Assembly: GCA_016214955.1 (NCBI GenBank)
Contig: JACRMN010000012.1
Coordinates: 372,001-436,000, forward strand
Direction: 5' to 3'
DNA: 64,000 bases
Source of the DNA: Deltaproteobacteria bacterium
GTDB lineage: Bacteria > Myxococcota > Myxococcia > Myxococcales > Anaeromyxobacteraceae
Part shown: positions 4,180 through 14,882 of the stretch, piece after piece
How the letters are laid out: each line of letters opens with the position of its first letter
How positions within the stretch are numbered: the first letter of the stretch is position 1
The notes under the pieces: model-generated
Seen by the model: only the letters and a program-made list of their open reading frames with translations
What the model was told of the DNA's origin: nothing
Databases searched by the model: none
Made by a program: the position numbers and the translations under genes

Positions 4180-5631
4180 GTGACTCTCGGCAACGCAGCC
4201 CCGGCGCCCGGCGCCGCCCGCGGCGGCATCGCCGGCGAGGTGCTGGCCGAGCAGCTCGCCGGTCTGGCCCGCCGCCTGCCGGTGGCGCTGGCCACCGTGG
4301 TGGTGAACAGCGCCGCGGTGGCGGCGGTGCTGCACCACAGCCTGCGTGGCGGGCTCTGGCCCTGGGCCGGTGCGCTCTGGCTGCTCTCGTCGCTCCGGCT
4401 CTGGGTCGCCTGGAGCTACCGGCCGCGCCCCGGCGAGCCGGCGGCCCAGGCGAGGCAGCGGCTCTGGTTCGTGGGCGGCAGCCTCGCCAACGGCCTGGCC
4501 TGGGGCGCGCTGCCACTCCTCTTCTCCGAGCTCGCCGCGTCGGAGCGAGCCTTCGTGGCGGTGGTGCTGGTGGGCATGTCGGCGGGCGCCGCCGGGAGCA
4601 ACTCCACCTACCTGCCCGCCTTCCTCGCCTTCCTGGTGCCGGCGCTGCTCCCGCTGGAGGTGCAGCTCCTCCGCTCCCGGGTCGCGCTGGAGCTGGCCAC
4701 CGGGGTGATGGGGCTGGTGTTCACCGGAGCCATGGTGGCCATCGTCCGCCAGGGCTCGCGGTCGCTGGTGGAGATCCTGGGGAGCCGGGACCGGAACCGG
4801 GCCCTGGCCGAGGAGCTGGGCGCGGCCCGGGAGCAGCTCGCGGAGGTGAACGCCGGCCTGGAGGAGCGGGTGCGGGGGCAGACCCGCCGGCTCATGGAGG
4901 TGGAGCGGGAGCTGGCGCAGGCGGCGCTCCTGGCCAGCGTGGGCAGCCTCTCGGCCAGCGTGGCCCACGAGATCAACAGCCCGCTCTCGGGCGTGATGGC
5001 CAACCTCGCCTGGCTGGAGCGGGAGCTGGCCACGGTGGCGGGCGAGGGCGGCGCCGCGCTGCTCGAGGCCGTCACCGAGTCGCGCCAGGGGGCGGCGCGG
5101 GTGCGGGACATCGTGCGCAACCTGGGGGCGCTGGCGGCGCCGGCCTCCGGTCCCGCAGCCGCCGACGTGCGCGAGACGCTGGAGGCCTGCGCCGCGGTGG
5201 TGGGCTCGGAGCTGCGCGGCCGGGCCAGGCTGGTGCGCGAGTACGGGGACGTGCCGCGGGTGGGCGCCGACCGCGCCCGGCTGTCCCAGCTCCTCCTCAG
5301 CCTGGTGCTCCACGCGGTGCGCTCGGTGCCGCCCGGCGCACCGGAGCACCACGAGATCCGGCTGCGCACCGGCTGGGATCCGGTGCGGCGCCAGGTGCAG
5401 GTGGAGGTCTCCGACACCGGCCCGGCGCTCTCGCCCGACGACCGGGCGCGGCTCTTCGACCTGGCTGCGGCGCCGGCGGTGCGCGGCGCCCAGGCGCTCG
5501 GCCTCTCGCTCTGCCACCAGCTGGTGTCGGGCGTGGGCGGCAGCATCCGGGCCCGGGGCGCCGAGGGGCTGCCCAACGTGGTCGAGGTGCTCCTGCCGGT
5601 GGCTGCCGAGGCCGAGGGGCGCGGCTCCTAG
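4180..5631 (+). CDS. Membrane sensor histidine kinase with degenerate ATP-binding motifs
   Basis: 483 residues. About six hydrophobic helices fill residues 25-190, followed by a coiled coil (roughly 200-245), a HisKA dimerisation helix with the phospho-acceptor H263 in VAHEINSPLSG, and an HATPase domain to the C-terminus. Within the ATPase domain the usual N-box Asn is replaced: LSLVLHAVRS has His where NLLLNA-type motifs have the Mg-binding Asn. The G2 region reads GAQALGLSL rather than GTGLGL. ATP hydrolysis may therefore be weak, or the protein may act mainly as a scaffold or phosphatase. No response regulator is adjacent. The GTG at 4180 follows a purine-rich stretch. Confidence 0.85.
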   Translation: MTLGNAAPAPGAARGGIAGEVLAEQLAGLARRLPVALATVVVNSAAVAAVLHHSLRGGLWPWAGALWLLSSLRLWVAWSYRPRPGEPAAQARQRLWFVGGSLANGLAWGALPLLFSELAASERAFVAVVLVGMSAGAAGSNSTYLPAFLAFLVPALLPLEVQLLRSRVALELATGVMGLVFTGAMVAIVRQGSRSLVEILGSRDRNRALAEELGAAREQLAEVNAGLEERVRGQTRRLMEVERELAQAALLASVGSLSASVAHEINSPLSGVMANLAWLERELATVAGEGGAALLEAVTESRQGAARVRDIVRNLGALAAPASGPAAADVRETLEACAAVVGSELRGRARLVREYGDVPRVGADRARLSQLLLSLVLHAVRSVPPGAPEHHEIRLRTGWDPVRRQVQVEVSDTGPALSPDDRARLFDLAAAPAVRGAQALGLSLCHQLVSGVGGSIRARGAEGLPNVVEVLLPVAAEAEGRGS

Positions 5632-5858: not shown

Positions 5859-6128
5859 GTGGACCCCCTGCAGCGATTGCGCGACCTGGCAGTGAGCGAG
5901 AGCGGCTTCGTCTTCGACCCCTACAGCGGGCAGACCTACAGCCTCAACCCCAGCGGGCAGGTGGCCCTGGAGGCGGTGCGGCGCGGCGAGGGGCCCGAGG
6001 CGGTGGCCGAGGCGCTGCGCCTGCGCTTCGAGGTGGATCCGGGCCAGGATCTGGCGCGCGACGTGGCCGAGTTCCTGCGTGCGCTGCGCGAGCAGGGCTG
6101 GCCCGCTCCGGGCGCGGAGGGGCCGTGA
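5859..6128 (+). CDS. PqqD-like small protein (RiPP-recognition-element fold)
   Basis: 89 residues. The pattern SGFVFDPYSGQTYSLN, then a helix, then a helix ending FLRALREQGW is that of the PqqD/RRE family. In that family a short beta-hairpin and three helices bind the leader of a peptide and present it to modifying enzymes. The GTG at 5859 follows GGAGG. The stop overlaps the GTG of the ATP-grasp gene by 4 bp, so the two are translationally coupled. No precursor peptide is evident in the 227 bases upstream. Peptide-chaperone function is inferred from family and position. Standalone PqqD-like proteins also occur in HPr-kinase-related systems, but no such kinase is encoded here. Confidence 0.75.
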   Translation: MDPLQRLRDLAVSESGFVFDPYSGQTYSLNPSGQVALEAVRRGEGPEAVAEALRLRFEVDPGQDLARDVAEFLRALREQGWPAPGAEGP

Positions 6129-7195
6129 GCACACGCCCCCTCACCGTGGCCGTCACCGGGCTCAACGCCACCGACAACCCGGCCCCCGGGGTGGGGGTGA
6201 TCCGCTCGCTGCGCGACGCGCCCGGCTTCCGCGGCCGCATCGTGGGGCTGGCCTACGACGCGCTCGACTCCGGTCTCTACGCCCGCGACATCGGCCTCGA
6301 CGCCGGCTGGCTCATCCCCTACCCGAGCCAGGGGGTGGAGGCGCTGCGGGAGCGGCTGCGCTTCATCCACGCCGCCCGGCCCATCGACGTGCTGGTGCCG
6401 ACGCTCGACTCGGAGCTCCCCGGCTTCATCGAGCTGGAGCCGGAGCTGCGCGAATGGGGCATCCGCATGTTCCTGCCCACCCGCGAGCAGCTGGAGCTGC
6501 GCCAGAAGTCGCGGCTCGCCGACCTGGGCGCCCGCGCCGGCCTCGAGGTCCCGGCCAGCAAGGCGCTCTCCGACGTGAGCGAGCTCTACCGCATCCAGGC
6601 CGAGATCCCGTATCCGCTCATGGTGAAGGGTGTCTTCTACGGCGCCGTGCTGGCCCGCTCGCCCGACGAGGCGGCGGCCGCCTTCCACGCCACCGCCGCC
6701 CGCTGGGGGCTGCCGGTCATCGCCCAGCGCTGGCACGCCGGCGAGGAGTACGACGTGGTGGCGGTGGGCGACGGCCGCGGCGGCATGGTGGGCGCGGTGC
6801 CCATGAAGAAGCTCTTGCTCTCCGACAAGGGCAAGGGCTGGGCCGGGGTGGCGGTGCGGGACCCCAACCTCCTGGAGGCGGCCCGCCGCTTCTTCGCCGC
6901 CACCTCCTGGCGCGGCCCCTGCGAGCTGGAGATCCTGCGGACCGCCGAGGGGCGCTACCTGCTCATCGAGGTGAATCCGCGCTTCCCGGCCTGGAGCTAT
7001 CTGGCAGCGGGCGCCGGCCAGAACCTGCCCTGGGCGGTGGTGCAGCTCGCCCTGGGCGACTCGCTGGCGCCGCTCCCCGACTTCCGCGCCGGCACCCTCT
7101 TCGTCCGCATCTCCCTCGACCAGATCGCGACGCTGGCGGAGCTGCAGGCCCTGACCACCGGAGGCCTGTCGCGCCTCGAGGAGCACCTTCCGTGA
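6125..7195 (+). CDS. ATP-grasp ligase
   Basis: 356 residues with the ATP-grasp layout. An N-terminal Rossmann-like pre-ATP domain (VTGLNATDNPAPGVGVIRSL) is followed by an ATP-binding domain with the Lys in YPLMVKG. The C-terminal metal-binding signature is LLIEVNPRFPAWSY, in which Glu and Asn should chelate Mg. It resembles carbamoyl-phosphate-synthase-large-subunit/PylC-like enzymes more than ribosomal-peptide graspetide ligases. The general reaction is carboxylate plus ATP to acyl-phosphate, then attack by an amine or thiol. It overlaps both the PqqD-like gene and the decarboxylase gene by 4 bp, implying a common pathway. The substrate is unknown; a peptide or amino-acid carboxylate is inferred. 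Confidence 0.85.
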   Translation: MSTRPLTVAVTGLNATDNPAPGVGVIRSLRDAPGFRGRIVGLAYDALDSGLYARDIGLDAGWLIPYPSQGVEALRERLRFIHAARPIDVLVPTLDSELPGFIELEPELREWGIRMFLPTREQLELRQKSRLADLGARAGLEVPASKALSDVSELYRIQAEIPYPLMVKGVFYGAVLARSPDEAAAAFHATAARWGLPVIAQRWHAGEEYDVVAVGDGRGGMVGAVPMKKLLLSDKGKGWAGVAVRDPNLLEAARRFFAATSWRGPCELEILRTAEGRYLLIEVNPRFPAWSYLAAGAGQNLPWAVVQLALGDSLAPLPDFRAGTLFVRISLDQIATLAELQALTTGGLSRLEEHLP

Positions 7196-8532
7196 AGCAG
7201 GCCTACGAGCGGCCGGCGCTGGTGAAGCACCAGCCCGGCCTGATGAACAAGCTGTCGGGCGTGCAGGCCATGCGCCCCATGGAGCGCATCGACGGCGTGC
7301 CGGTGAAGGAGCTGACCGCGCGCTTCGGCTCCCCGCTCTTCGTCTTCTCGGAGCGCACCCTGGTGTCGCGAGCCCGCGAGCTGCGCGAGGCCTTCGCCCT
7401 GCGCCTCCCCCGGACGCAGCTCGCCTGGTCCTACAAGACCAACTACCTCGACGCCGTCTGCAAGGTGTTCCACCGCGAGGGCTCCTGGGCCGAGGTGGTC
7501 TCGGAGATGGAGCTCGACAAGGCCCTGCGCCACGTGCCCGGGAGCCAGGTGATCTTCAACGGCCCCTACAAGCCGGAGGGGGCGCTGGAGAAGGCCTTCC
7601 GTGCCGGCGTCCGCGTGCACCTGGACCACTTCGACGAGCTGGCGCGGGCCGAGGCGGTGGCGCGCCGGCTGGGGCTGCGGCCCCAGGTGGCCATCCGGGT
7701 CAACATGGCGCTGCCGGGCACGCCGCCCTGGTCCCGCTTCGGCTTCAACCTGGAGAACGGGCAGGCCATGGACGCCGTGCGCCGGCTGCGCGCCGGCGGC
7801 GTGCTGGAGCTGCGCGGCCTGCACAGCCACATCGGCACCTTCGTGCAGGAGGTGGACGCCTACCGGCAGGAGGCGCGCCAGCTCGCCGGGCTCGCCAACC
7901 GCATCGCCGCCGAGCAGGGCGTGGCGGTGGACTGGATCGACCTCGGCGGCGGCTTCGCCTCGCGCAACACCCTGCACGGCCAGTACCTCCCCGGCAGCCA
8001 GGCCAGCCCCTCCTTCGCCCAGTACGCCGAGGCGGTGGCCGACGGCCTCTCGGCGCTCCAGCTCCCCGGCGGTCGCGAGCCCACCATCCTGCTGGAGACC
8101 GGGCGGGCGCTGGTGGACGAGGCCGGCCACCTCCTCACCACGGTGCACGCCAGCAAGCGGCTCCCCGACGGCCGCCGCGCGCTCATCGTCGACGCCGGCG
8201 TCAACGTGCTCTTCACCGCGTTCTGGTACCGGCACGAGCTGGCGCCGGCCCAAGAGCTCACCGGGACGCCGGAGCCCACCGTGGTCTTCGGCCCGCTCTG
8301 CATGGCCATCGACGTGGTGCGCGATCAGCTCCTCTTCCCGCCCATGGCGGCCGGCGACCAGCTCGTCGTCAAGGGCGTCGGCGCCTACAACGTCACCCAG
8401 TGGATGCAGTTCATCACCGAGCGGCCGGCGGTGGTGATGATCTCCCGCGACGGGGAGGCGAGCCTGATCCGCCGGCGCGAGACGGTGGAAACGCTGCTCG
8501 GGCAGGAGGAGCTCCCGGCGTGGCTCCGGTGA
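7192..8532 (+). CDS. PLP-dependent fold-type III amino-acid decarboxylase-like enzyme
   Basis: 446 residues, alanine-racemase-type barrel plus beta domain, as in diaminopimelate, ornithine and biosynthetic arginine decarboxylases. The PLP Lys is K82 in WSYKTNY. Other landmarks are GLHSHIGT (stacking His), DLGGGFAS (phosphate loop), LLETGRALVD (variant of the EPGR motif) and GPLCMAID, which carries the active-site Cys contributed across the dimer. The length is close to diaminopimelate decarboxylase, but the operon is not a lysine operon, so it more likely makes a specialised amine or D-amino acid. It overlaps its neighbours on both sides by 4 bp. The exact substrate cannot be read from sequence. 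Confidence 0.85.
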   Translation: MKQAYERPALVKHQPGLMNKLSGVQAMRPMERIDGVPVKELTARFGSPLFVFSERTLVSRARELREAFALRLPRTQLAWSYKTNYLDAVCKVFHREGSWAEVVSEMELDKALRHVPGSQVIFNGPYKPEGALEKAFRAGVRVHLDHFDELARAEAVARRLGLRPQVAIRVNMALPGTPPWSRFGFNLENGQAMDAVRRLRAGGVLELRGLHSHIGTFVQEVDAYRQEARQLAGLANRIAAEQGVAVDWIDLGGGFASRNTLHGQYLPGSQASPSFAQYAEAVADGLSALQLPGGREPTILLETGRALVDEAGHLLTTVHASKRLPDGRRALIVDAGVNVLFTAFWYRHELAPAQELTGTPEPTVVFGPLCMAIDVVRDQLLFPPMAAGDQLVVKGVGAYNVTQWMQFITERPAVVMISRDGEASLIRRRETVETLLGQEELPAWLR

Positions 8533-10700
8533 GCGCCCTCGCCGCTCGCGCCGGATCGGCCGCCGAGGCGGCCGCCCCGCGCCGCCTGGCGCCGCCGGCC
8601 TTCGTCTCGGCTGCGCTCCGCGCCTACGCCCAGGTGCTCTTCCTGGGGCGGCGCCGGCACGGGCTGCTCCTGCTCGCCGCCACCCTGCTCGAGCCCCGCG
8701 TCGGGCTCCACGGGCTGGCGGCGGTGCTGGCGGCCCAGGTGCTGGCCCGGGCGCTGCAGCTCGGCGAGGAGGCCACCGCCGGCGGCCTGCACGGCTACAA
8801 CCCGCTGCTGGTGGGGCTGGCGGTGGGCGCCTCGTTCGAGCCGGGCCCGGCCACCGCCGCGCTCCTCCTCCTGGCGGTGGGTGCCACCGTGTTCCTGGAG
8901 GCGGCGCTGCAGGCCTCGCTGGGCGCCTGGCTCGGGCTGCCGGTGCTCTCGCTCCCCTTCCTCGGGGTCACCTGGCTGGCCCTGGCGGCCGCCCCCTCGC
9001 TCGGGCCGGTGGCGCGCGCGGTGCCGGCGCTGGTGCCGCCGGCGCCGCCCGCCTGGCTCCCCGAGGCGGCCTGGCTCTACCTGCGCAGCATGGGCGCGAT
9101 GCTCTTCTCGCCTGGCGCCGCCACCGGTGCGCTGGTGGCGCTGGCGCTGCTCCTGCACAGCCGCATCGCCCTCCTCCTCTCCCTGGCCGGCTTCGGCATC
9201 GCCTGGGTCCTGGCCGCGCACGTCTTCACCTTCGCCAGCGATCCCAGCCTGCTCCTGCTCCACGCCAACGCGGCGCTGGTGGCGGTGGCCCTGGGCGGCG
9301 TCTGGTTCGTGCCCCAGGCCTCCTCCTTCCTCCTGGCGGCGGCGGCGGTGCTGGTGACGGCCCTGTTCACCGCCGGCAGCCTGCCCATCTTCCGCGCCGC
9401 GGGCCTGCCGGTCCTGTTCCTCCCCTTCGACCTGGCGGTGCTGGTGGTGCTGGCGGCCATGCGCCAGCGCACCCGCGACGGCTCGCCCAAGTCGGTGGAC
9501 TTCGCCGCCGGTGCGCCCGAGGCCAACCTGGCCCACTACCGGACCCGGCTGGCGCGCTTCGGCCCCGGCCCCGCGATCCGGATGGCGCCGCCCTTCTCCG
9601 GCCGCTGGACCGTGACCCAGGGCGTGGACGGCCCGCACACCCACCGCGGCGCCTGGCGCCACGCCCTCGACTTCGAGGTGCTCGACGCCGCCGGGCGCAG
9701 GCACACCGGCACCGGAACCCAGCTCCGCGACCACCTCTGCTACCGGCTCCCGGTGCTGGCGCCGGCCGACGGGACCGTGGTCAAGGTGGTGACCGACCGG
9801 CCTGACAACCCGCCGGGCGAGCTCGCGACCCGCGATCCCTGGGGCAACCTGGTGCTGCTCCACCACGGCCCAGGCCTCTACTCGCTGGTGGCCCACCTGG
9901 CGCCGGCCTCCTCCGACCTGCGCGAGGGGCAGACGGTGCGCCAGGGGGCCCGGCTCGGCCTGTGCGGCAACAGCGGCCGCTCCTTCGTCCCGCACCTCCA
10001 TTTCCAGCTGCAGGCCACGGCGCGGCTGGGGGCGCCGACGCTGGAGCTGGCGCTGGCCGACGCCGTGGTGGAGGAGGAGGGCGTGCCGCGCCTCCACCGC
10101 TCGCTGCTGCCCTCCGAGGGCCAGGCGCTGCGCGGCCTGACGCGCCAGGACGACCTCGCCGAGCTGCTCGCCTTCCCGCTGGGCCGGCGCTGGACCTGGC
10201 TCTGCCGGGAGCCGGGCGGGCGCGAGCTGCGCGAGGCGATCACCTCGGAGATCAGCCTCACCGGCGAGCTGTACCTGGCCTCGGCGGACGGCGGCGGCCG
10301 GCTCTGGTTCGAGACCCTGGGGCGCCAGCTGCTGGTCTACGACCACCTGGGGCCGCGCCGGAGCGTGCTCCACCTGCTGGCCGCGGCGCTGCCGCGGGTG
10401 CCCTACGAGCTGCCGGCAGGGCTGCGCTGGGACGACGTGCTGCCGCGGCGCCGCTTCCGGCCAGCCTGGGCGCGCTGGGCCGCCGACCTGGCCGACCCGT
10501 TCCTGGCGCAGGACGGCCTGGTGATGCGCTACCGCGCGGAGCGGAACGGAGTCCTGCAGGTGCGGGGCGAGGGACGGCTCGGCGGCCGCACGGTCGAGAC
10601 GGGCGCGGTGGTGCTCCCCGGGCGCGGTCCGGTGGAGCTGTGGCTGCAGGTCGGGCGCGAGCGCTGGAGCGCCTGCGCCGTCGAGGAGGAGGAGCCGTGA
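8529..10700 (+). CDS. Urea-transporter domain fused to an M23-type peptidase domain
   Basis: 723 residues. Residues about 20-310 are membrane helices with urea-transporter signatures in two halves: LHGYNPLLVGLAVG and LPVLSLPFLGVTWL. Residues about 345-500 resemble a lysostaphin-like M23 zinc peptidase: a THRGAWRHALDFEV segment, the long glycine-rich core GDGTVVKV-like strand region, and PHLHFQL with H489 and H491. The first metal motif is spaced H378-x-x-D381, not the usual HxxxD; the preceding His of THRG could substitute. The last 200 residues are an unrecognised conserved-looking domain. The GTG overlaps the decarboxylase stop. A periplasm-facing M23 domain tethered to a small-molecule channel is unusual. 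Transport of urea itself is not proven. Confidence 0.75.
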   Translation: MSALAARAGSAAEAAAPRRLAPPAFVSAALRAYAQVLFLGRRRHGLLLLAATLLEPRVGLHGLAAVLAAQVLARALQLGEEATAGGLHGYNPLLVGLAVGASFEPGPATAALLLLAVGATVFLEAALQASLGAWLGLPVLSLPFLGVTWLALAAAPSLGPVARAVPALVPPAPPAWLPEAAWLYLRSMGAMLFSPGAATGALVALALLLHSRIALLLSLAGFGIAWVLAAHVFTFASDPSLLLLHANAALVAVALGGVWFVPQASSFLLAAAAVLVTALFTAGSLPIFRAAGLPVLFLPFDLAVLVVLAAMRQRTRDGSPKSVDFAAGAPEANLAHYRTRLARFGPGPAIRMAPPFSGRWTVTQGVDGPHTHRGAWRHALDFEVLDAAGRRHTGTGTQLRDHLCYRLPVLAPADGTVVKVVTDRPDNPPGELATRDPWGNLVLLHHGPGLYSLVAHLAPASSDLREGQTVRQGARLGLCGNSGRSFVPHLHFQLQATARLGAPTLELALADAVVEEEGVPRLHRSLLPSEGQALRGLTRQDDLAELLAFPLGRRWTWLCREPGGRELREAITSEISLTGELYLASADGGGRLWFETLGRQLLVYDHLGPRRSVLHLLAAALPRVPYELPAGLRWDDVLPRRRFRPAWARWAADLADPFLAQDGLVMRYRAERNGVLQVRGEGRLGGRTVETGAVVLPGRGPVELWLQVGRERWSACAVEEEEP

Positions 10701-11893
10701 CCCGGATCTGCCTGCTGGCCCTGTCGCTCCTGGCCGCCGCACCGGCCGGGGCCGACGGCTACGACGAGGCCCTGGCCGAGGCGCGGCGCGAGGCGGCGGC
10801 GGGACGGTTCGCCAGCGCCGCCCGGCTCCTCGAGGCGCCGGCCCGGCGCTGGCCGCAGGACTACCCGGTGCAGCTCGAGCGGGCCTGGTTCCTCTTCCAG
10901 GCCGGCGCCTACGGCGAGGCCGCGGCCGGCTACCGCCAGGCGCGGGCGCTGGCGCCCGAGGCGGTGGAACCGGTCCTGGGGCTCGGCTGGACGGCGCTGC
11001 GGGAAGAGGACGCCGCCTCGGCGCGCGGGCTCCTCGAGGAGGCGCTGCGCCGCAGCCCGGAGAGCGGACCGGCGAGGGAGGGGCTGGCGCTCCTGGGGCC
11101 GGAGAACCGGCTCACGCTGGCGCTGGGCGGCGGCTACACCGGCTACGAGGCCGCTTCGCGCCCCTGGCTGGCCACCGGCACGGTGTCGCTCGACGGCCTG
11201 CTCCTCGACCGGCTGGCCGTCGGCGCCCTCTACCGGCTGCTGGGCACGCAGAGCAGCCTGGTGGGTGGGCGGGGGCGCAGCGCCGCCTCGGCGCCGCTGC
11301 AGCACGAGCTCCACGGCTCCCTGGGCTGGTCGTCGGCTCGCTGGAGCGCGATGCTTCACGGTGGGTGGATCGGCGGGGCGGCGGCGGGCACCGGAGCCAC
11401 CGGGGCCACCCTGGCCGGCGCCGGCACCCTGGCTGGCGCCTCGGGCTGGGGCCGGCCGCTTCCGTGGCTGGAGCTCGACGGCGCCCTGCTCCGTACCTTC
11501 CGCGGCGGCGGGGAGGTCACCCAGTGGCAGGCGGCCGCCGGCGTCAGGCTTTCCACCCGGCTGCTCCTGCGCGCCGGCGCCCGCGGTCAGGACGCTCCGG
11601 AGGGCGCGGGCCTGGCCGGGCTCGTCAGCCTGGAGCTTCGCGGGCGCACCTGGGGCTGGCTGGCGGGCGAGATGGGCACCCAGCGGCAGCCGGTGGACCT
11701 GGCCGCCCGCGTCATCCACGCCACGCCGGCGCCGCTGCGCTGGGCCGCGCGCACCGGCGTGGGCTTCCCGCTCGGCGGCTCGCTCTCCGGCGTCGCCGCG
11801 CTCGACCTGGAGGCGTGGGGCGCGAGCGCCGCCGGTGCCACCGACGCCGGCCTGGCGTGGCGCGGCAGCGCAGGTCTGCGCCTGACGTTCTGA
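10697..11893 (+). CDS. Secreted TPR plus outer-membrane beta-barrel protein
   Basis: 398 residues. A cleavable signal peptide (ends about AGADG) is followed by three TPR-like helical pairs (residues 25-130, for example AYGEAAAGYRQARALAPEAVEPVLGLGW). About 250 residues of alternating hydrophobic/polar strands rich in Gly, Leu, Ala and Arg end in GLRLTF, with the terminal Phe typical of outer-membrane barrels. The TPR-then-barrel order recalls polymer-export porins such as PgaA or BcsC, though it is much smaller. The GTG overlaps the stop of the transporter/peptidase gene by 4 bp. Likely role: outer-membrane component of the same system. Confidence 0.7.
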   Translation: MTRICLLALSLLAAAPAGADGYDEALAEARREAAAGRFASAARLLEAPARRWPQDYPVQLERAWFLFQAGAYGEAAAGYRQARALAPEAVEPVLGLGWTALREEDAASARGLLEEALRRSPESGPAREGLALLGPENRLTLALGGGYTGYEAASRPWLATGTVSLDGLLLDRLAVGALYRLLGTQSSLVGGRGRSAASAPLQHELHGSLGWSSARWSAMLHGGWIGGAAAGTGATGATLAGAGTLAGASGWGRPLPWLELDGALLRTFRGGGEVTQWQAAAGVRLSTRLLLRAGARGQDAPEGAGLAGLVSLELRGRTWGWLAGEMGTQRQPVDLAARVIHATPAPLRWAARTGVGFPLGGSLSGVAALDLEAWGASAAGATDAGLAWRGSAGLRLTF

Positions 11894-11914
11894 CCTTCAC
11901 CCGAGGTGACCATC

Positions 11915-12517
11915 GTGCGCTCCACCGCCCTCTTCCTGCTCCTCCTCGCCGCACCCGCGGCCGCCCCCGCCGAGCCCGGCGACGCCTGGCGCCTCTCCTA
12001 CGCCGCCGAGGCCCGGGGCGACAACGCCGCCGCGCTGGTGGCCCTGGAGAGCGCCGGCGGCGGCCCGGTGACCTACGTGCTGGCGCTGCGGCGCGGCTGG
12101 CTGCTGCACCTCGCCGGGCGGCACGCCGACGCGGCCGAGGCCTACCAGCAGGCCCTGGCCCTCGAGCCCCGGGCCGTGGAGGCGCGAGTGGGCGCGATGC
12201 TGCCGCTCATGGCGCTGCGCCGCTGGAAGGAGGCCGAGCGGCTCGGCGAGGAGGCGCTGGCCATCGCCCCCGGTGACCTCACCGCCCGCTCCCGCCTCGC
12301 CTGGATCGACTACAGCCAGGCCCAGTGGCAGAAGGCCGAGCAGCACTACCGCGAGGCCCTGGCCGCCTGGCCCGCCAGCGCCGAGCTGCGCACCGGGCTG
12401 GGCTGGAGCCTGCTGAAGCAAGGGCGCCACCGCGAGGCCCGCGCCGAGCTGGAGCGCGTGCTCGCCTGCGCGCCCGACCACGCACCGGCGCGCGAGGGGC
12501 TGGCGCTGATCCCCTGA
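11915..12517 (+). CDS. Secreted TPR-repeat protein
   Basis: 200 residues with a signal peptide (cleavage near APAEP) and four to five TPR motifs, such as AGRHADAAEAYQQALALEP and QWQKAEQHYREALAAWP. The GTG at 11915 is chosen because GAGGTGA lies five bases upstream; a GTG at 11906 would destroy that site. The last gene of the cluster, it resembles the TPR half of the preceding protein, suggesting duplication. It probably acts as a periplasmic scaffold for the peptidase or barrel proteins. A terminator-like hairpin follows directly. Confidence 0.75.
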   Translation: MRSTALFLLLLAAPAAAPAEPGDAWRLSYAAEARGDNAAALVALESAGGGPVTYVLALRRGWLLHLAGRHADAAEAYQQALALEPRAVEARVGAMLPLMALRRWKEAERLGEEALAIAPGDLTARSRLAWIDYSQAQWQKAEQHYREALAAWPASAELRTGLGWSLLKQGRHREARAELERVLACAPDHAPAREGLALIP

Positions 12518-12651: not shown

Positions 12652-14223
12652 ATGGTTTGCACCCGCAGCGCACTCGTCCTGTCGCTCGCCGTTTTCGCTG
12701 CACCCGCCCTCGCCGCGCCGCCGAGGCCGCCGGCCCGGTCCGCCACCCGCACCGCCGCCAGGCTCTCGGCCGGCTCGCGGGCCTGCGTCGAGTGCCACAC
12801 GGGCCTGACGGCCGGAATCGTCGAGCACTGGCGCGGGAGCAGGCACGCCGAGAAGGGCGTGGGCTGCCTGGAGTGCCACCAGGCCAGCAAGGCGGCGGCC
12901 GACGCCTGGGAGCACGGCGGCGCCTGGGTGCACACGGTGGTGACGCCGCGCGACTGCGCCCGCTGCCACGCGACGGAGGCGAAGGAGTTCGGCGCCAGCC
13001 ACCACGCCAAGGCCGGCAACATCCTGGCCTCGCTCGACAACTACCTGGCCGAGACGGTGGAGGGGGCGCGCGAGCCCTTCGACCCGCACGCCCGCACGCC
13101 GGGGCGCGACCTGCCGGCCAGGGTGAACGGCCTCGCCTCGGCGCAGCAGGGCTGCCAGCAGTGCCACGGCGGGCGGGTGGCGCTGCAGGCGCGGAGCGGC
13201 GGCCCGGTGACGGTGGAGGACCTCAGGCCGGGCGCCGACGGCCTGCCCGGCGACGCGGGGGCAGCGGCGCGCGTGGCCCGCAACGCCGACGGCCGCCCGC
13301 TGCTGGTGGACGCCACCTGGCCCAACACCGGCATCGGCCGGCTCAACCTCGACGGCTCGCTGGGCTCCTGCGCCGCTTGCCACAGCCGGCACGACTTCTC
13401 GGCGCGGCGGGCCCGGCAGCCGGAGAACTGCGGCAAGTGCCACCTCGGCCCCGACCACCCGCAGAAGGAGATCTACGAGGAGTCGAAGCACGGCGTGGCC
13501 TACCGCGACCTCAAGGACCAGCTCGCCCTCGACGGCCGCACCTGGGTGCTGGGCAAGGACTACTCGGCGGCGCCCACCTGCGCCACCTGCCACATGTCGG
13601 CCAACGCCAACGGCGGCAAGGTCACGCATGATCCCGGCGAGCGCATCTCCTGGACCAACCGGCCGCCGGTCTCGCTCCCCATGGACACCGACGCCGCCCA
13701 CCGCGTGGTCACCGAGGCCGACCCGGAGAGGCGCAGGGCGCTGGTGGCCGACACCGCCCTCGCCAAGCGGGCGCGGATGCAGCAGGTGTGCACCACCTGC
13801 CACGCGCCCAGCTACGTGGACGGCTTCTACCGGCAGTACGACGACTTCGTCCAGCTCTACAACGAGAAGTTCGCCCGGCCCGGCCTGCAGATCATGAACG
13901 TGCTCCACGAGCAGGGGCTGGTGGACAAGGGCAAGTTCCGCGACGAGATCGAGTGGACCTGGTTCTACCTCTGGCACCACGAGGGGCGCCGCGCCCGCCA
14001 CGGCGCCGCCATGATGGCGCCCGACTACGCCCACTGGCACGGCATGTACGAGGTGGCCGAGGACTTCTACATGAAGCTCGTGCCCCAGGCCCGGGAGCTG
14101 GCCCACGCCGCCGAGGTGCGGGGCGAGAAGGCCAAGGCCGAGGCGGTGCGCGCGGTGGTGGACCGGATCCTGGCCCGGCCCGAGCACGCCTGGCAGGCGA
14201 AGGAGCGGCCGGCGGGGCGCTAG
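12652..14223 (+). CDS. Octahaem c-type cytochrome of the hydroxylamine oxidoreductase family
   Basis: 523 residues with a signal peptide (cleavage after APALA). Eight CxxCH motifs occur: CVECH, CLECH, CARCH, CQQCH, CAACH, CGKCH, CATCH and CTTCH, all within the first 390 residues. A helical C-terminal domain follows, with PDYAHWHGMYEVAEDFY. Haem count, spacing and this tail match the octahaem HAO family. Members of this family oxidise hydroxylamine or hydrazine, or (epsilonproteobacterial type) reduce nitrite and hydroxylamine. The direction depends largely on a Tyr that cross-links the catalytic haem, which I cannot assign with certainty by eye. In a non-nitrifying background a reductive or detoxifying role is more likely. 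The gene overlaps the convergent gene by 4 bp. Confidence 0.85.
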   Translation: MVCTRSALVLSLAVFAAPALAAPPRPPARSATRTAARLSAGSRACVECHTGLTAGIVEHWRGSRHAEKGVGCLECHQASKAAADAWEHGGAWVHTVVTPRDCARCHATEAKEFGASHHAKAGNILASLDNYLAETVEGAREPFDPHARTPGRDLPARVNGLASAQQGCQQCHGGRVALQARSGGPVTVEDLRPGADGLPGDAGAAARVARNADGRPLLVDATWPNTGIGRLNLDGSLGSCAACHSRHDFSARRARQPENCGKCHLGPDHPQKEIYEESKHGVAYRDLKDQLALDGRTWVLGKDYSAAPTCATCHMSANANGGKVTHDPGERISWTNRPPVSLPMDTDAAHRVVTEADPERRRALVADTALAKRARMQQVCTTCHAPSYVDGFYRQYDDFVQLYNEKFARPGLQIMNVLHEQGLVDKGKFRDEIEWTWFYLWHHEGRRARHGAAMMAPDYAHWHGMYEVAEDFYMKLVPQARELAHAAEVRGEKAKAEAVRAVVDRILARPEHAWQAKERPAGR

Positions 14224-14882
14224 CGCACCAGCCCGCGGACGAGCCCGTCCAGCTCCCTGGGGGTGAGGCCGCAATCGCGCAGCACCTGACCCCAGGTGGC
14301 CTTGCCGGCGCGGACCTGTGCCACCAGCGGCGCGGTGGGGACCGAGAGGCGGGCGGCCAGCGCCGAGGCCAGGATGCGCTCCTCGGGCGAGGCGCCGGCG
14401 TCGTGCAGCGTCCGCAGCGCCGCGGGCGCCACGCCCATGCGCGTCGCCAGCACCTCGTCCACCGCCAGCGAGGCCAGCGCCCTGCCGTCGGCGCCGCGGG
14501 CCAGCGCCGCGGCGAAGGGGCCGTCGAGCTCCTTCTGCCCGGCCAGCGCCGCCGGCCAGCCCTTGCGCTCCTCGCGGAGCGAGAGCAGGTGCGGGGCGCC
14601 GAGGCCGGTGCGGCTGCCGGCGTAGTAGGCCACCCAGAGATCCTCGGCGGCGGTGCCTGTCATCGCCGTGCTCACCAGCGTGCGCTTGTCCACTCGGTAG
14701 GCGGCCGAGAGCAGGGAGCTCCGCGTGGTGGCCAGGATGTACGGGTCGGCGGCTCCGGGACGCTCCGGATCGAAGGTGCGGTCCCGGTAGCAGTGGCAGG
14801 CAGCGGCGCTCTCGCCAGGAGCCGCTGCGGCCGGGAGGAGGAGCGCGGCGCCCAGGGCCGCCAGGGGCAACAGGCGCGCCAT
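14220..14882 (-). CDS. Secreted protein with CHCY motif, function unknown
   Basis: 220 residues. A signal peptide (MARLLPLAALGAALLLPAAA) is followed by a short AACHCYRDRTFDPERP segment at the mature N-terminus. A mostly helical Ala/Leu-rich domain comes next. The two Cys and His near the mature N-terminus could bind metal or haem, but there is no CxxCH. I do not recognise a named family. The ATG overlaps the stop of the DUF2249 gene (ATGA), so it is coupled to it. It lies tail-to-tail with the octahaem cytochrome, which hints at a shared nitrogen-oxide-related role. Confidence 0.7.
   Translation of the reverse strand: MARLLPLAALGAALLLPAAAAPGESAAACHCYRDRTFDPERPGAADPYILATTRSSLLSAAYRVDKRTLVSTAMTGTAAEDLWVAYYAGSRTGLGAPHLLSLREERKGWPAALAGQKELDGPFAAALARGADGRALASLAVDEVLATRMGVAPAALRTLHDAGASPEERILASALAARLSVPTAPLVAQVRAGKATWGQVLRDCGLTPRELDGLVRGLVR

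Follow-up and report, generated by a model that had tools for sequence, protein, structure and literature searches.

Introduction

RiPP recognition elements (RREs; RiPP, ribosomally synthesized and post-translationally modified peptide) are known to grip short precursor peptides. RREs of the lasso type, such as TbiB1 and TfuB1, the B1 proteins of lasso peptides, bind YxxPxL leaders (PMC10368454); a broader form of this ligand is [Y/W]xxPx[L/V/I/F/A], for which crystal structures of LppB and PbaB1 show the contacts (PMC13381572), and RRE recognition sequences have been grouped as W/Y/LxxP (PMC12710340). Moreover, a clade of alanine-racemase-fold (AR-fold) decarboxylases takes as substrates amino acids that are already conjugated, for instance to a carrier (BtrK) or to a peptide (MccE, microcin C) (PMC7857480). 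In the rhizoferrin pair FslA/FslC (FigA/FigC), a ligase, which is an NRPS-independent siderophore (NIS) synthetase, is followed by a decarboxylase acting on the amide conjugate. In the butirosin trio BtrI/BtrJ/BtrK, a small acyl carrier protein is combined with an ATP-grasp enzyme, which we take to be BtrJ, and an AR-fold decarboxylase. Here, we analysed a six-gene cassette encoding a PqqD-like protein, an ATP-grasp ligase and an AR-fold decarboxylase, located in a stretch of 64,000 nucleotides (the window) from a Deltaproteobacteria bacterium of the Anaeromyxobacteraceae (assembly GCA_016214955.1, contig JACRMN010000012.1, positions 372,001 to 436,000). Our comparison places the PqqD-like protein among the RREs and suggests that its ligand is probably a leader-like N-terminal tail of the decarboxylase, not a separate peptide.

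Results and Discussion

The cassette comprises six genes on the plus strand at positions 5859-12517 of the window, with the following features:

5859..6128, plus strand: PqqD-like protein, putative discrete RRE of the lasso-B1 type (PF05402; similarity to TbiB1/TfuB1; leader-contact residues)
6125..7195, plus strand: ATP-grasp ligase, carbamoyl-phosphate-synthase-like (PF15632; relative of carbamoyl-phosphate synthase, CPSase; conserved K168 and E282xN284)
7192..8532, plus strand: AR-fold pyridoxal-phosphate (PLP) decarboxylase, FslC/FigC-like, 446 aa (PF02784/PF00278; similarity to FslC; AlphaFold2 (AF2) domain)
7201..7257, plus strand: N-terminal tail of the decarboxylase, residues 4-22, AYERPALVKHQPGLMNKLS, leader-like YxxPx[LIV], putatively for docking (motif in 80/80 loci)
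8529..10700, plus strand: channel of the urea-transporter (UT) fold (about 25-315), M23 metallopeptidase (about 355-500) and C-terminal region (PF03253, PF01551)
10697..11893, plus strand: tetratricopeptide-repeat (TPR) domain followed by a 14-strand outer-membrane beta-barrel (AF2 model; Foldseek match to BcsC)
11906..12517, plus strand: small secreted TPR protein of about 205 aa (TPR Pfams; TPR cluster in 65/84 loci)

Genes 1 to 5 overlap by 4 bp each (at 6125, 7192, 8529 and 10697), and 12 bp separate the end of gene 5 from the start of gene 6. The Pfam domains above curated cut-offs were PF05402, PF15632 (marginally), PF02784 with PF00278, PF03253 with PF01551, and TPRs, while no NCBIfam model reached its cut-off for the core genes, either here or in the cassette of a Bacteroidota relative.

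In the window's own family, ATP-grasp orthologues with 48-80% identity are present in five other genomes, with the neighbours in place where contigs reach. A scan of genomes with the ATP-grasp alignment recovered at least 556 relatives; going by record titles, the best 80 loci among these (43-80% identity) belong to Myxococcota, Bacteroidota, Ignavibacteria/Chlorobi, Gammaproteobacteria and others. Clustering of open reading frames (ORFs) over 84 loci recovered the ATP-grasp gene in 84, the PqqD-like gene in 82, the decarboxylase in 80, the UT-M23 fusion in 72 and the TPR cluster in 65, many of the shortfalls being contig ends; gene order was nearly always kept, and the four core genes show correlated protein distances (r 0.84-0.93). 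As for the alignments, one of the 22 rows of A5 (L035, out of frame) is noise, and A1, where the L033 row is out of frame, was not used. Since the gene set recurs in nearly the same order at 43-80% ATP-grasp identity, the association is far beyond chance. An earlier note on this DNA had proposed that six genes, the first five coupled by 4 bp overlaps, act together, naming a lack of synteny in relatives as what would speak against it; all six were located, and their synteny is strong.

Of 148 genomes drawn from the phylum Bacteroidota, the phylum of one cassette member, 15 carry an ATP-grasp orthologue; the same 15 carry the decarboxylase tail, with one additional marginal match, and the UT, with two additional matches in frames of 280-294 aa. 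The cassette is a real, widespread, patchily distributed and unnamed genetic element, forming one conserved functional unit. No paper on this gene combination was found in the open-access literature, nor did any named family found cover the cassette, and, together with the NCBIfam result, this agrees with the previous impression that the combination resembles no named system. An anti-phage defence system was considered and had no PADLOC match.

The PqqD-like protein scores 43.5 bits against PF05402 (cut-off 23.4) and is the only PF05402 protein encoded in the genome. Against the PDB, its cassette profile (alignment A6) matched TbiB1 (2e-13) and TfuB1 (8e-11) best, followed by PqqD of pyrroloquinoline quinone (PQQ) biosynthesis (2e-3). 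Moreover, the positions of the LppB contacts N33, F74, M78 and D70 are the four most conserved aligned columns among 83 cassette PqqDs (Mann-Whitney p 3e-5), with N in 82, D in 77, F in 78, and L in 77 plus M in one. The D70 residue of LppB hydrogen-bonds the leader tyrosine, and the corresponding position is Asp in 70/72 loci whose tail is of the Y type and in 2/6 of the W type (Fisher 1.5e-4), an association that is only indicative, the loci being related. These data support the PqqD-like protein as a genuine peptide-binding type, closest to lasso-peptide RREs: like TbiB1, TfuB1/FusB1, PbaB1 and LppB, it has the same contact residues and a [YW]xxPx[LIV] sequence nearby.

Known PqqD-containing systems fit poorly. 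For a lasso system, the protein scores 41.6 against the NCBIfam lasso PqqD cut-off of 70, and neither an asparagine-synthetase-like cyclase nor a B2 protease was detected in the operon, the flanking genes scanned or the recurrent neighbours. PQQ biosynthesis (TIGR03859, 18.7 vs 46 bits; no pqqA, pqqC or pqqE among recurrent neighbours) and the HPr-rel-A system (TIGR04353, 32.2 vs 35 bits; no HprK-related kinase among recurrent neighbours) were likewise rejected. Furthermore, a covalent carrier similar to LysW or an acyl carrier protein was dismissed, since neither its C-terminus nor any potential attachment residue is conserved throughout.

A candidate ligand is encoded two genes downstream. 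Ahead of the catalytic fold, all 80 decarboxylases carry [YW]xxPx[LIVM], followed by the consensus x[KR]xxxGxMNKFG. In 78 long sequences (median identity 51%), Pro8 and Lys20 are the sole tail residues that are 100% invariant, Asn19 is kept in 96%, Tyr5 in 94% (Trp in 6%) and Gly16 in 90%, and the conservation of the tail equals that of the enzyme domain. Alignment with the structures of FslC and diaminopimelate decarboxylase (DAPDC) begins no earlier than position 22 of the decarboxylase profile. The tail is predicted to be unstructured: in the AF2 model (22 homologues), residues 1-30 have pLDDT 37-61, falling below 50 at 1-3 and 10-25, while the remainder is mostly above 80. A single operon thus encodes an RRE and its probable recognition sequence, YxxPx[LIV], which is carried by an enzyme. 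In lasso RREs and LppB, the leader (YxxPxL/WxxPxL) is on a peptide, whereas here it would be on a 446-aa enzyme. Consistent with this, the idea that PqqD presents peptides stands as regards the peptide-binding type of the protein, but its likely ligand is the decarboxylase tail rather than a free precursor. Of our new proposals, this link between RRE and tail is the best supported, and we consider it likely.

Some points weigh against the docking of the tail on the RRE. YxxPx[LIV] is a short motif and its likeness to leaders may be coincidence; the conserved Gly of the tail stands 11 residues after the Tyr, as against 9 residues in lasso leaders; and the association of Tyr or Trp with Asp is phylogenetically non-independent. 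In addition, N, D and F contacts are common across the PqqD family, so that their conservation shows a working RRE, not its ligand. In this context, the PqqD-like protein could be otherwise employed, for instance as a regulator or stabiliser of the ATP-grasp enzyme, with the tail docking on the dimer partner of the decarboxylase or on the ATP-grasp protein. The conserved GxMNKFG, which extends past the RRE motif, would fit this alternative, and, as all cassette genes co-evolve, any pair could interact; we regard it as fairly unlikely, given that the tail motif matches the sequence known to be bound by exactly this subtype of RRE and that the contact cleft is the most conserved part of PqqD.

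The search for a precursor peptide bears on a second alternative. Among all ORFs 15-110 aa long that lie up to 3 kb away in the 84 loci and the window, no conserved small precursor was found (E up to 1e-4), the search giving only chance clusters in flanks or antisense, which bears out the earlier observation that no precursor is encoded nearby. In 12 genomes, the tail profile gave one match each at E<0.01, on the decarboxylase (12/12), with three further matches at E 0.5-0.7. The short precursor gene with leader and core that defines a RiPP pathway is therefore lacking from these results. The locus could still be a true RiPP pathway whose precursor is elsewhere or was missed, with the RRE presenting a peptide to the ATP-grasp and decarboxylase enzymes and the M23 domain cleaving the leader. 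The fusion of peptidase and membrane channel is reminiscent of exporters that contain a peptidase, and the RRE is of the lasso type; furthermore, ATP-grasp ligases are used on peptides in graspetides (PMC8939145), and AR-fold decarboxylases in the case of MccE (PMC7857480). Nevertheless, both searches speak against this explanation, which also leaves the recognition sequence on the decarboxylase unaccounted for, and we consider it unlikely.

Regarding the chemistry, the ATP-grasp protein scores 29.8 bits against PF15632, just over the cut-off of 29.1; its best PDB relative is the CPSase large subunit, and K168 and E282xN284 are kept in nearly all alignment rows. The closest PDB match of the decarboxylase profile is FslC (7kh2, 328 bits), with DAPDC at 234 bits. 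C370 and M371 are invariant, and Met371 (after the catalytic Cys), Thr342 and Tyr346 (specificity helix) are common to the cassette decarboxylase and FigC, at positions where DAPDC and basic-amino-acid decarboxylases have acidic or Arg residues. On the other hand, His357 of FigC, which contacts citrate, is replaced by Ile373; with 228 bits against an NCBIfam cut-off of 500, the enzyme does not qualify as the N-citrylornithine decarboxylase (FslC) itself. DAPDC (LysA) was also rejected (217.5 vs 297.9 bits; Met371 and Thr342 in place of an acidic residue and Arg), as was a standard lysine or polyamine decarboxylase, for which scores are below NCBIfam cut-offs and the specificity residues are wrong. 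Accordingly, the possibility raised in the earlier note that these enzymes belong to a standard amino-acid pathway is not what the lysA score indicates.

Since the decarboxylase resembles the clade of FslC/FigC, BtrK and MccE, which act on already conjugated amino acids, it more likely works after the ligase than as a supplier of free amine, the role first suggested for it. In agreement with a common pathway, a 758-aa fusion of a cassette-type ATP-grasp domain and a PLP decarboxylase, annotated as hypothetical, is encoded on Streptomyces zaomyceticus plasmid NZ_CP108525.1 (L134:8995-11268; GRSCMEND, sharing the CM motif with the cassette enzyme), and an ATP-grasp gene adjoins that of a DAPDC-like decarboxylase on Nitratidesulfovibrio vulgaris RCH1 plasmid NC_017311.1 (L133:5670-8578), beside FemAB/GNAT and acyltransferase genes and with a PrsK kinase nearby. 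Together, the fusion and the adjacency favour ligase and decarboxylase in one pathway. The tail is absent from both, and no PqqD was annotated in the stretches inspected; as a distant homologue (29%), the D. vulgaris decarboxylase is a weak control for this absence.

Conjugation chemistry by ligase and decarboxylase, as proposed earlier, is likely, and a ligase-then-decarboxylase route to a decarboxylated amino-acid conjugate is, by a modest balance of the sequence comparisons, the order we favour. Such a route would parallel rhizoferrin biosynthesis, which shares the Met, Thr and Tyr determinants but uses a NIS synthetase where the cassette has an ATP-grasp ligase. It would also parallel the butirosin trio, whose small protein is an acyl carrier, while the cassette PqqD is not one, no conserved attachment residue being seen.

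The channel half of the fusion protein scores 151 bits against PF03253, matches dvUT (2e-50) collinearly and has the UT fold, although it falls short of the UT cut-off TIGR03441 (87.8 vs 274.6). Bacterial urea transporters (dvUT, Yut) share its fold and length, but the cassette protein differs from them in its fused M23 domain. In 67 cassette channels, the dvUT sites Gln24, Thr130, Glu187 and Thr294, which we take to be urea-coordinating, are Q in 45, T in 9 (S in 54), E in none and T in 6, respectively, while pore Phe27 and also Phe297 are mostly kept. Because Glu187 is gone (0/67) and Thr294 mostly gone (6/67), a urea role or selectivity is doubtful. Transport of the product by the channel is a tentative proposal, somewhat less probable than its opposite; for a conjugate, a pore of urea size is narrow, which counts against the proposed export step.

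The M23 domain (PF01551, 56.6 bits) keeps H372, D381, H456, H489 and H491 in 67/67 proteins and has a longer first motif (HxGxWxxALD). Standalone relatives with about 40% identity to it were observed on plasmids of haloarchaea (H3-H8, H10, H16; H4 is Thermus). Haloarchaea lack murein, and these relatives suggest that this branch of M23 acts on something other than murein. In UT-B, both N- and C-terminus are inside (PMC5700210). As the segment after the last channel helix is also rich in Arg and Lys, the M23 domain probably faces the cytoplasm. Consequently, of the periplasmic and export end first assigned to the M23 domain and the barrel, the former is placed differently, whereas the barrel is backed by the AF2 model of gene 5 (TPR plus 14 strands; pLDDT 87.7, pTM 0.77). 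Its best Foldseek match was BcsC (7e-11), followed by OmpG, and it shares the TPR-then-barrel order of BcsC/PgaA-type exporters; it differs from them in having 14 strands and a short TPR region, and the cassette contains no polysaccharide synthase.

The probably cytoplasmic M23 domain leads to a last, quite improbable alternative, in which the tail is itself the modified substrate, a precursor of leader and short core attached to the enzyme that matures it: the ATP-grasp ligase would charge the tail, e.g., at Lys20, the decarboxylase convert the tethered amino acid and the M23 domain release a short product for export, in keeping with Lys20 and Pro8 standing invariant within an unstructured segment and with BtrK and MccE using a carrier-bound amino acid and a peptide conjugate; nonetheless, cleavage would cost the enzyme its tail at each turnover, and the role of Lys20 may simply be to touch the RRE or the body of the enzyme. 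If true, it would represent a ribosomal 'built-in carrier' pathway across several phyla in which the decarboxylase is both enzyme and RiPP-like substrate.

Concerning the surroundings, two-component regulators are frequent upstream of the cassette among the recurrent neighbours of the 84 loci. In the window, a sensor histidine kinase (4180-5631) lies directly upstream, different kinases or regulators recurring at other loci, and a multihaem c-type cytochrome (12652-14223; PF13447), with weak NCBIfam similarity to hydrazine dehydrogenase, lies right after the cassette; neither was counted as a member, as tblastn against L032 and L033, the closest two relatives, gave no match to either. The cytochrome is followed by a minus-strand protein (14220-14882) without Pfam match. 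Further away, a secreted protein (314-1894) has two CxxCH motifs, and between them lie three near-identical repeats, CTYTY(G/S)DWSAC. A GNAT gene recurs beside the cassette in Chitinophagaceae, and in Ignavibacteria the gene directly upstream of PqqD encodes a secreted protein that has a sorting domain for type IX secretion (L088:7904-8743; orthologues, e.g., in L059, L082 and L112).

Conclusion

In brief, we interpret the locus, with slightly better than even confidence, as a biosynthesis-and-export cassette in which an RRE-docked decarboxylase works beside a ligase. The PqqD-like RRE would clamp the YxxPx[LIV] tail at the N-terminus of the decarboxylase, docking this enzyme beside the ATP-grasp ligase, which may link an amino acid and another small molecule through an amide bond. 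The decarboxylase would then remove the alpha-carboxylate of the conjugate, as FigC does with N-citrylornithine, and the conjugate or a co-product might be handled by the channel/M23 protein of the inner membrane together with the TPR proteins and the barrel of the outer membrane, the weakest step of the model.

The occurrence of the cassette in about one-tenth of the sampled Bacteroidota-phylum genomes implies an as yet undescribed, probably common metabolite and export route. If true, a recognition sequence on an enzyme would be a new use of RREs and would account for part of the discrete RREs that surveys describe as 'orphan', having no known machinery (PMC7470986, PMC12710340), and the logic of leader and RRE would serve the assembly of enzyme complexes as well.

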